From Siphonodentalium dalli (taxonomy: Eukaryota; Mollusca; Scaphopoda; Gadilida; Siphonodentaliidae), in NCBI GenBank assembly GCA_032622095.1, contig CP136062.1, positions 203,201,959-203,265,958 on the forward strand: DNA of 64,000 bases, written 5' to 3'. Every line of letters begins with the position of its first letter. Positions within the stretch are counted from its first letter, which is position 1. A program made the position numbers and the translations under genes. Shown here piece after piece: positions 29,601 to 35,600 of the stretch. The notes beneath the pieces are model-generated. The model made no database searches and was not told where the DNA came from. It saw only the letters and a list, made by a program, of their open reading frames with translations.

Positions 29601-32600
29601 TGTATAGAGATTCCAACACTCGCCCGAATGGATACATCGCTTTGTTGATACTAAGTTGTGATTGGCTGCGACTGACATAATGCCTACTTGTGGTAATAAG
29701 GATCCCCCCCCCAAATATTCCAGACTCGGTACAGCGTTATACAGTAATGCCCTAAATAATCTACTCCTTAACCACAGCAGAATTACAGGTAATTTTTCAG
29801 GATTTAGTCGGATATATGGCTTGTTGCCATTCATTGGAAAGCTCTCACTGAGATCTTTCCGATGAATGGCAACAAGCCATATTTCCGACTATCGGAAATA
29901 TGGCTTGTTCCATTCATTGGAAAGCTCTCGTTGAGAGCTTTCCGATGAATGGCAACAAGCCATATTTCCGACTAAATCCTGAAAAATTACCCATAATTCT
30001 GCTGTGGTTAAGGAGTCAATTAATTAGGGCATTACTGTAGCTGGCGAGTCTGTGTTGCTATTCAATTTTCCAGTTTTCATAGCATTTTCCTATGCGAAAT
30101 AAAAAATTTATATTACTCCTTGAGAAGATCCCTGAAGAGACTTACATTGTGGTGGCCATTAATTGCAGCATCATGAAGTGGTGTGTCACTATCCAGTCCC
30201 TGTACATTCACAATCGCACCAGCCTTTATCAATGCTTTGGCTACATCAAACCAGCCCATGTTACAAGCTTCATGCAAGGCTGTCCATCCTGAATCAAGAT
30301 AGTAATTTCTTGTAAATCTATTGGTTTAATTTTATTTACAGTACAATTGATTAAAAAATAGTCCTGTGCTTGGACAATACAGAGATTACATTGATAACAT
30401 TCTTTGAAAGTCAAGTCCAACGGGAAATAACTTCACCATTAATCCTTTCTATACTAAACAGTCATTTATGAGTAGTTATCCCAAGGAACTGTTCAGATAA
30501 TAAGTTCAATATACATTTGTTGAACTTAATATCTGAACATTTCCCTCAAAAGGCCTCAATATATATGACTCTTTCTGCACATTTATTATCTGTTGTCTGC
30601 TATTGCCTGTACATCCAGGTACATCAACTCCAAATTAATACTAGACTATTCCAATGAACAATTTTTTTTAACATAGTGGGAGAATCCATTTAGTATAGAA
30701 AGGGTTGAGAGCTTTCCGATGAATGGCAACAAGCCAAATTTCCGACTAAATCCTGAAAAGTTACCCATAATTCTGCTGTGGTTAAGGAGTTGATTATTTA
30801 GGGCATTACTGCATCTCTCTTCTTTAACAATTTTACAACACCTATATGTCAGAAAAAAAATTCATTTAGGAATGCGAGCGAACTTGAGGCTCCAAACATG
30901 AGTATCGACTGTATCGCATGTATAAATTGTCCTATTTTTTTTACCAATAATGCTGAACAATGTCTAATTATCTAAACATACCCGCATAGTCTGTGATGTT
31001 GACATCCGCACCAGCCTTGATGAGCTTCTTTATAGCCTTGAAATCACCTTTCTTAGCAGCAAGGTGAAGAGGTGTTTCACCTTTCTCGTTACGATGGTGG
31101 ACCTTTTTTAGAGCTGGAGTGCGTTTCTGAGGAACTGGTTGAGGTGAGGAATGACGAGGTGACTGATCAGCTGAAAAACAAAACGAGACATGCATATATT
31201 GGGTTTCAAGCCTCAGTTTAGTGTGCCTGTCATCTGCATAGCAGGCTAGCATCACTAAATTCACCCTCTGGGGACCTCATTCTGCTTAGGCCTTATCTTC
31301 TCTGCAAAGTTTCTTTATTATTAATTTCTATAGAAACTTCTTCACATAGATTTGATTTCTTTTTTAGTTTAGTTTCTCCATATCAACCAAATTGGCAGAC
31401 AACACATTGCATAATCCAGGTTCCCAATGAGTGTACATCAAAATATCCCAATTTGGGAACTTCAATCTGAGTCTATGTCTCCCATAGCAGATAAGGCCAT
31501 GCAGAATGCAGGGATGAGAACAGGCACTGATGAAATCAGCTGGAATGCAAGCTAAGCGATGCGTTGTCCATCGCGCTGCAAGGCGCAAACCACAGGCCGG
31601 GGGTTTGGGGGCCGCCTAGGCCACCTAAAGCTCTAGGGGTAAGGGGGTCATTTCCTGCAATCGGAGGCCTCTCCTAAGAGGAAAATCTGATAATCTGAGA
31701 GTGCAATTTTTAGTGGATAATTTTAATTTTTCCATTTTTTTTTACAAGTCTCAAGAAATTTCTCACATGCAGAGAATGGATCCAGCATGCTATTAAATAC
31801 AAAACATTTGTGTCAAGATGATTCTTAATGTCCCTGTACTAGACTATTAGTGTATATCTGAAAATATTTTGAAATAAATGAATAGATAATTCTAATCTAC
31901 ACCTACCAATTTATCAAACAGGATGGTCTATTCGAAATGAATATTCCACATCATACATTTATATGTTATTCGGTATAAAAGAATCATAATTAATGTACAG
32001 AATAACATATTATATGAGAATAATCTCTTTGAATAGACTATCTTCAGATTCATTTTTGAAAATAGAATTATAGAAGTTTAATACTTAGCCACACTTAGCC
32101 ATTTAAAGTTATTTAGATCGTTTTTTTCCGAGCCACGACTGCCATACTTCACAGTTTGATTCAAACAAGAAACACAAACAACGAGTTCCTCCACTTTTTG
32201 AAAAATTCTCCAAGTTTTCTCTCGTTTGTTTTGTGACCAACTAGCGCAAGCGAAACGGTCTTTTCCAACCATGCATTCCCAACGGAACTTTTCTTTCTCA
32301 TTCTTGTCAATCTCACGCACACGGTGGTCGTTTTTCGCTCGATTATTTTCAAAGCCGACATTGTCACGATTGTATCTGTAGATATGTCAGTACAGGAACA
32401 AATTCTGGTTATAGACGCAAAACAATGCAAATCTCGCGGGTTATCGGAAAGCAGGTATTTTCCAAGAACTCTTGTAATTCTTGGTAATGATTGGTTATTT
32501 CCAAGAACTTCTAAGTAGCTCGACCAATGAAATGTTGCGACACGTAAATTACTGGGGGAATCCCATGACATCATTGTTTTACTCCTTGAAAGATGCCGCA

Positions 32601-35600
32601 ATCTGACCAATCACAACGCGCGGTACACTTACCTGTGTCTCTCATTTAGCAGTCTTTCCGAAATCGTATTCCGCGCGGTCTTTTAGAGCCAATTCATTCA
32701 ATTAAACCTCCCCCTCCCCAATTATCTCAACGGATTTGTATCGATCTCAAAAATGGGTTTTTGCCTGTTAAAAAGCGGGAGAATGAGAATGAGGTACACA
32801 ATGCTGACCTCATTCTGGAAATGACAGGCACACTAATCTCAGTCTTACTGGGTTTATATTTTATCGTATGACTAGTTGACTACCACCAATCTCTTACAAA
32901 TACCACTATTATTTGTTGATAAATTCCTAGCTGTTGGAAAATGCTTGTCTGATCGTGAGCTGTATCAATATCCTTTGAAATCCGTATCAGTATGGTTTTA
33001 AATGAGGTGGAGATTCCCACAAAAAATTTCTACAACAAGAAATGTCACTTGAAAGTTTCTATGCCCCCGTAATGAAGCAATTCATGAGCAAATTTATACG
33101 CTGACCTCCAATAATTTGTAATGTTGCATTCCATGAAGACTTATTGAATATAAAACCCATCTGACCTCGATCTTTGACAAACCACAATGTACACATATCG
33201 CGACACACCGTCACCATAGGTTAACCATCACGCCTTGTTTTGTTGAAATCATATGATGTGCACAAAAGTTATGGAACAGACACAAAGGGTAATGTCTGTT
33301 GACTTAATCTAGAGAATGACAATTGTCATGTGACCTTGACCTTCAACAATTGGAAAACAAATTCACATCATCTCCTCATTAGGAACAAGAGCATCGCTAG
33401 GGCGTGGCAAAATACGCCCTTTAGCCATTTCGAATTGTACTATCGCAAAATAAGATAATACTTTGAGCTTACATTTGAAGAAAATCTGATATACCCCTAA
33501 TTTCAATGCCAAATTGTGGTAAAATTCTAAGTCGAAAAATGGCCATAACTCATGTAAAAATAATTAGACAGAACCTATATTCAAACTTGGCCTGTAGTTT
33601 TAACTGGGAAATACACATACCAGCTTTGGTTCAGCTCAAATAATCAAAACTGGAGTTATCGGTCGGAAACCAAAATGTTATGAAATTGGTAAAATTCTAA
33701 GTTGAATAAAAGGTCGTAGACCTCATGTCCTCCTCTATGTGTCGGCTTGATACGACCGTTGTTTGCGCATAAAATCCTGTCTTTAGTGCTAGTAAACCTA
33801 CATACCAAATTTAATTTCATTCAGTACACATTTACTAAAGTTATCATCCGGAAACCTCAAATTGGCAAAAATTCTAAGTCAAAAAGGGACATAACTCTGG
33901 TGAAAATTGGCGGGCGGAACCCGAATTCAAACTTGACCTGTGTTTTGCTGGGAGAAAGACACATACCAACTTTGGTTCAGATCAAATAATCCAAACTGGA
34001 GTTATCGGTCGGAAACCAAAAATGTTAACAGACGGTCAAATTCTAAGTCGAAAAAGGGCCGTAACTCATGTCAAAATAATTAGACGGAACCCATTTTCGA
34101 ACTTGGCCTGTATCATTAGCTGGGAAATACACATACCAACTTTGGTTCAGATCAAATAATCCAAAACTGGAGTTATCGGTCGGAAACCAAAAATGTTAAC
34201 AGACGGTCAAATTCTAAGTCGAAAAAAAGGGCCGTAACTCATGTAAAAATAATTGGACGGAACTCATATTTGAACTTGGTCTGTATCTTTAGCTGGGAAA
34301 TACACATACCAACTTTGGTTTAGATCAAATAATCCAAACTGGAGTTATCTGTCGGAAACCAAAAATGTTAACAGAAGGTAAAATTCTAAGTCGAAAAAGG
34401 GGCATAACTCTGGTGAAAATGGGCGGACGGAACCAGAATTCGAACTTGACCTGTCTTTTCTGCTAGTAAACCCACATACCAAATTTAATTTAATTTGGTT
34501 AACTCTAACTAAAGTTATCATCCGGAAACCTCGGACGCACGGACGGATGCACAGGCTGATTATAATAGTCCTCCGAACCCGTTGGGTCGGCGGACAAAAA
34601 GGGCTGTAACTCATGTAAAAATAACTGGACGGAACCCATATTCGAACTTGGCCTGTATCTTTAGCTGGGAAATACACATACCAACTTTGGTTCAGATCAA
34701 ATAATCCAAACTGGAGTTATCGGTCGGAAACCAAAAATGTTAACAGACGGTCAAATTCTAAGTCGATAAAGCGCTGTAACTCATGTAAAAATAATTGGAC
34801 GGAACCCATATTTGAACTTGGCCTGTATCTTTAGCTGGGAAATACACATACCAACTTTGGTTCAGATCAAATTATCAAAACTGGAGTTATCGGTCGGAAA
34901 CCAAAAATGTTAACAGACAGTCAAATTCTAAGTTGAATAAAAGGTCGGTAGACCTCATGTCCGCCTCTAAGTGTCGGCTTGATACGACCGTTGTTTGCGC
35001 ATAAAAACATGTCTTTAGTGCTAGTAAACCTACATACCAAATTTAATTTCATTCAGTACACATTTACTAAAGTTATCATCCGGAAACCTCAAATTGGCAA
35101 AAATTCTAAGTAAAAAAGGGACATAACTCTGGTGAAAATTGGCGGGCGGAACCCGAATTCAAACTTGACCTGTGTTTTGCTGGGAGAAAGACACATACCA
35201 ACTTTGGTTCAGATCAAATAATCCAAACTGGTGGAGTTATCGGTCGGAAACCAAAAATGTTAACAGACGGTCAAATTCTAAGTCGAAAAAAAGGGCAGTA
35301 ACTCATGTAAAAATAAATGGACGGAACCCATATTCGAACTTGGCCTGTATCTTTAGCTGGGAAATACACATACCAAATTTGGTTCAGATCAAATAATCCA
35401 AACTGGAGTTATTGATCGGAAACCAAAAATGTTAACGGACGGCTAGACAGACGGATGGACAGACTGATAACATAATACGACCTTTTTTCAAAAAGGGCAT
35501 ATAACAACTATTGCAAGTTTCAACAATCCAAAAAAGGTAGCGGGCACGAAGGGTGCAAGAAAATATGACTGGTGCCAATGAAATCTAAGTTTGAAAGCAC

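Follow-up and report, generated by a model that had tools for sequence, protein, structure and literature searches.

The 64,000-nucleotide stretch of Siphonodentalium dalli contig CP136062.1 analyzed here, called the window below, carries on its minus strand part of a gene that, by similarity, we take to be ANKRD11/12-like. Within the 8.4-kb intron between exons 39735-39568 and 31170-30982 of this gene sits a single hAT-like insertion of 1641 bp, at positions 31207-32847. It is flanked by a target-site duplication (TSD), TTGGGTTT on the left and CTGGGTTT on the right, with seven of eight positions identical, and its left end, CAAGCCTCAGTTTAGTGTGCCTGTCAT, agrees at 23 of 27 bases with the reverse complement of its right end, TAAGACTGAGATTAGTGTGCCTGTCAT, so that the two form terminal inverted repeats (TIRs). 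An original prediction, made from the sequence alone, had placed the element at exactly these ends and 36 bp from an exon acceptor, and both placements hold: the former by the TIRs and the TSD, the latter because 31171-31206 separates the element from an exon that begins at 31170. The two exons and the outer parts of the element are as follows.

39568-39735, minus strand: upstream neighbor of the 31170 exon in this gene, with an open phase-1 join to it and no Pfam match of its own
30982-31170, minus strand: ankyrin exon of the ANKRD11/12-like gene, downstream of the element (Pfam Ank_4, 5.2e-11; acceptor TTTTTCAG, donor GTATGT)
31199-31206, plus strand: left TSD, 7/8 against the right copy
31207-31233, plus strand: left TIR, 23/27 against the right end
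31234-31290, plus strand: left subterminal hairpin unit without its first arm, the part common to short relatives (89-100% to their arms at 19.4, 26.9 and 53.7 kb)
32786-32820, minus strand: right subterminal region with a short hairpin, CAGAATGAGGT...ACCTCATTCT, recognized by its fold and by likeness to the ends of the short relatives at positions 13-42 of the end
32821-32847, minus strand: right TIR, from the TIR comparison
32848-32855, plus strand: right TSD, 7/8 against the left copy

By a binomial estimate that treats bases as independent, about 8e-5 pairs combining a TIR of 23/27 with a TSD of 7/8 are expected by chance in the whole searched space. A scan of the window for ends spaced 150-5999 bp apart, with a TIR of at least 20/27 and a TSD of at least 7/8, returned 23 pairs, the 31207-32847 pair among them; judged from the repeat map, most of the others are pairs of palindromic or repeated elements. 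Ends at an inner TAGTGTG, with a TA or TTA target, were considered and dropped in favor of the longer TIR, which with its 8-bp TSD is the better fit. A 27-column inverted repeat (31278-31304 against 31483-31508, 85%) in the left part of the element may be one of the family's subterminal repeats.

The element had been predicted to be kin to other copies nearby, and indeed three fold-back miniature inverted-repeat transposable elements (MITEs) and one solo left end in the window have related termini.

26849-27101, plus strand: fold-back MITE, TSD CTTACGTG (8/8)
53645-53896, plus strand: fold-back MITE, TSD 7/8
19414-19656, plus strand: fold-back MITE, right end without its outer 12 bp, TSD TTTTTTGG (8/8) at the shortened end
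47258-47445, minus strand: solo left end from a longer copy of the family, found by sequence matches, with TIR, full hairpin and 62 bp of interior

In each of the three MITEs (243-253 bp), the left end and its hairpin unit come first and the same sequence, inverted, comes second; their six halves match the solo left end at 99-106 positions over 115-121 columns. Because each holds the left-end unit inverted, the MITEs look like the reduced form, and the 1641-bp element would then be a longer copy of the family with distinct ends. Its right end resembles the MITE ends at positions 13-42 only and beyond them has its own shortened hairpin, as expected of a distinct right end in a longer element. 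The MITE at 19414-19656 has lost 12 bp at its right end yet shows TTTTTTGG on both sides, which fits a small deletion at a TTT microhomology. The 8-mer flanking the solo end has one further occurrence in the window (11439), which was not accepted as a TSD partner.

The predicted hAT-like label gains support from the shared TIRs and from TSDs of 8 bp, which match at seven of eight positions at the element and at eight, eight and seven of eight at the three MITEs, although no transposase was recognized that would prove it. Eight-base-pair TSDs with such short TIRs fit hAT elements; P and Merlin elements likewise produce duplications of 8 bp or nearly so, and the assignment beyond TSD and TIR is presumptive. 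The family core gave no match in prokaryote genomes and no confirmed match among viral contigs. Among the papers listed on fragments captured by hAT MITEs, on bivalve non-autonomous hATs, on fold-back MITEs of the hAT type and on first exons borne by hATs, nothing was recognized as this family.

Between the ends lie the following features.

31291-31352, plus strand: interior also present at the 47.3-kb solo left end, hence family sequence (31244-31352 against 47367-47258, 94.5% over 110 columns)
31353-32785, no strand: interior found once in the window, with only short weak matches elsewhere in it
31922-32042, no strand: imperfect palindrome, possibly a nested MITE (self-inverted match, 69.8% over 129 columns; no TSD recognized)
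32078-32386, minus strand: open frame previously taken for a gene start, with GTG at the proposed start codon; coding unsupported (ranked 68th of 217 by codon score; no match in Pfam or PDB)
32164-32610, minus strand: open frame of 149 aa, the longest in the element (ranked 133rd of 217 by codon score)
32480-32729, no strand: promoter-like stretch by motif count and CpG, five CCAAT/ATTGG per 250 bp and high CpG
32627-32635, minus strand: CAG/GTAAGT donor with last exon base 32633, which may close an alternative first exon whose ATG is at 32645-32643; the sole CAGGTAAGT in 64 kb

The original prediction described this interior as a CpG-rich cargo unlike other family members, and each half of that description stands in part. 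The interior is absent from all three MITEs, but the solo left end runs past the point where the MITEs turn back and continues into 31291-31352 (the 110-column match includes part of the end unit); therefore the interior begins with at least 62 bp of family sequence. No further similarity was found: when 31353-32800 was aligned to the 3.3 kb past the solo end, the score was 26, lower than the 28-31 of the top five among 30 shuffles. As for CpG, its observed/expected ratio is 1.31 in about 32100-32700 against 0.72 for the whole window, but CpG is missing altogether from 31291-31540 and 31691-31915. Among all 600-bp segments, 2.8% reach 1.31 and the maximum is 1.62; the contrast is real, not unique, and limited to about 600 bp on the right. 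Both GC and CpG shift between interior segments cut at 31541, 31691 and 32051, and the stretch 31916-32048, which includes the palindrome, has a predicted fold of -41.8 kcal/mol. Two bacterial Rfam families were hit in 30900-33000, both under their gathering scores, and were not used.

The right-hand stretch looks promoter-like in two tests that were picked after the sequence had been inspected, one of CCAAT boxes and one of the donor. The five CCAAT/ATTGG motifs in 32480-32729 compare with a mean of 0.66 per 250 bp. No offset has more than five, and the 71 of 63,751 offsets that have as many fall in this region and in one near 27.7 kb; of the 13 RRCCAATSR sites in the window, three fall in 32488-32613. 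The donor motif CAGGTAAGT is unique when both strands are searched and lies on the minus strand at 32635-32627. Both the open frame and the donor are thus on the strand of the ANKRD gene, and the predicted sense orientation is correct. A transposon's own 5' region could equally carry such signals.

The gene start itself fared less well. At the place named for it, the minus-strand frame has GTG (V), not ATG. The frames of 149 and 102 aa are somewhat long, being equalled in 2.1-2.3% and 2.7-3.4% of 1000 dinucleotide shuffles, respectively, and their codon scores rank 133rd and 68th among 217 open frames, under a weak model that missed one of two held-out exons. The training set of that model was a large exon plus the 31170 exon, both of the same gene; in the right register, the score was positive for the held-out exon at 39.6 kb and -0.199 for the other, near 30.2 kb, hardly above the 102-aa frame of the element (-0.249). 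Among all 22 open frames of at least 40 aa that touch the element, none reached a Pfam cut-off save the one running into the ankyrin exon, and matches below the cut-off (Kazal_C7, E 0.035; DUF3718, 0.042; ECSCR, 0.46; DUF7890, 0.023) were not used. The frame at 32078-32386 had no match in PDB, and patterns from the two longest minus-strand interior frames matched three and six stretches of viral contigs, none of them confirmed. A BED-type zinc finger of hAT transposase, loosely suggested in the frame at 32078-32386 by a by-eye WxxF...CxxC...YG pattern, was dropped, since Pfam returned nothing up to E 10 for the whole frame and two shortened pieces of it and PDB returned nothing. A captured coding exon is not supported by these results.

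We favor, with some reservation, the reading that this is a long non-autonomous hAT-like element whose interior is mainly the noncoding sequence of its parent transposon. A 1641-bp element would have inserted by cut and paste into the intron of the ANKRD11/12-like gene; the short members of its family are fold-back MITEs built from the left end and an inverted copy of it. In its favor are the TIRs and TSD, the related termini of the MITEs and the solo left end, the continuation of that end into the interior, the distinct right end, the inverted units of the MITEs, the failure to find a parental copy within about 31 kb on either side and the Pfam results for the element frames. The right-hand stretch, rich in CpG and CCAAT, would then be the 5' or promoter region of the parent, the transposase body having presumably been lost, and one hairpin was perhaps inserted later. 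Several observations weigh against this reading. The part 31353-32785, for which it assumes a family origin, has no second copy in the window; GC varies patchily by segment, from 25% to 58%, which also fits a composite; and the CpG- and CCAAT-rich right stretch with its perfect donor resembles a captured promoter. No transposase remnant was recognized in the element frames by Pfam, a search in which short frames give little power on decayed exons. Finally, the terminal bases, CAAGC and TAAGA, match YARNG, the consensus for the start of hAT TIRs, at only four of five positions. Because of this, and because the TSD preference of hAT elements, nTnnnnAn, is incompletely matched at all four sites, we use the label "hAT-like" rather than hAT.

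The first alternative is that host DNA, about 32050-32720, comprising a promoter and first exon, was captured between the ends of the element, which would make it a Pack-hAT, a reading close to the original prediction that we consider doubtful. The CpG ratio of 1.31 against 0.72, the CCAAT density at the joint maximum of the window and the sole perfect donor in 64 kb all speak for it, and of the claim as first made, the promoter-like stretch and the strong donor on the gene strand remain, but the start codon was misread and the interior is partly family sequence. A survey of 100 animal genomes reports 370 Pack-TIRs, of which 208 are hAT, making hAT the commonest carrier in animals, and includes one frog case that took a 5' UTR (PMC8277862). 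However, the same survey puts Pack-TIRs at about two per 10,000 TIR elements and 56.9% of those analyzed within 15 kb of their parent (PMC8277862), but the search for a parental locus that the original prediction had suggested, run within the 64-kb window (about 31 kb on each side of the element), found no parental copy of the interior. The left interior being family sequence and the lack of a coding signal, by a codon test that is itself weak, also argue against capture.

It is less probable still that the element is a composite, a longer copy invaded by other mobile sequences so that its interior is a stack of insertions. The palindrome at 31922-32042 and the changes in GC and CpG at 31541, 31691 and 32051 would fit such a history, but a nested TSD was not recognized, and no interior segment is convincingly matched elsewhere in this repeat-rich window.

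Whether the right-hand stretch, whatever its origin, gives the ANKRD gene an alternative promoter is a separate question, and we regard such use as quite unlikely. Transcripts would be predicted to start at about 32650-32720 and to splice from the donor at 32633 to 31170, giving an N-terminally shortened protein that keeps the ankyrin repeats. The stretch lies in the sense of the gene with a CAG/GTAAGT donor, and its ATG is in phase with the phase-1 acceptor of the exon, with an open join: the predicted splice reads ATG AGA GAC ACA G + CT GAT CAG, in frame with the ankyrin repeats. This join is suggestive at most. Of random positions, 27% are expected to have an open ATG in phase within 100 nt, and three of eight AGGTRAG sites have one, the donor of the element being one of the eight; moreover, the ATG context is weak, with T at -3, and the donor is upstream of all three of the strongest NF-Y-like boxes. 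We think it very improbable that a host promoter and first exon were captured by the element and now drive, through the only perfect donor in the window, a shorter isoform in frame (MRDT plus the ankyrin exon). If capture and use were both shown, the element would be an example, rare among animals, in which a DNA transposon carries a host promoter into another gene and creates a new protein start; as it stands, the element is an ordinary intronic DNA-transposon copy, probably without a role in the ANKRD gene.

The tract CGTTTTGTTTTTCAG is intact, and a branch point of the host intron may now fall in the end of the element. In mammals, according to one analysis, intronic transposable elements near exons are under-represented, and the retrotransposons found very near exons lie mostly by donors rather than acceptors, DNA transposons having been excluded from that comparison (PMC3088655). 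Elsewhere on the minus strand, a 713-aa open exon at 21747-23885 is probably the large exon of the ANKRD11/12-like gene, though it has no Pfam match. The window is otherwise rich in repeats. A second palindromic family (9792-10010, 46432-46649, 59151-59369 and 29740-30039) has matches of about 88-95%, and a third, of about 400 bp with palindromic cores, is found at 16577-16982, 43631-44028 and 46687-47124. Direct duplications pair 34768-36969 with 37023-39216 (93%) and 716-2215 with 2461-3976 (98% identity). Tandem-like arrays occupy 44143-44546, 11845-12957, 18068-19123 and 33518-35442, and the frames of the 66-bp tandem unit at 44.1 kb stay open on both strands.

Among known systems, Pack-TIR and Pack-hAT elements such as Pack-hAT-N8_XT, which carries a CAPSL 5' UTR (PMC8277862), likewise have transposon ends around nonrepeated promoter-like sequence, but a parental copy, their defining feature, was not found here within the 64-kb window. 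With intronic alternative promoters and exons derived from transposable elements, the insertion shares a strong gene-strand donor and an in-phase join, features predicted here from the DNA itself. Compared with non-autonomous hAT elements and hAT MITEs, it is longer than its sisters in the window, has an interior found once and has terminal bases agreeing at four of five positions with the hAT consensus; like them, it has no recognized transposase and combines an 8-bp TSD with short TIRs and internal hairpins.

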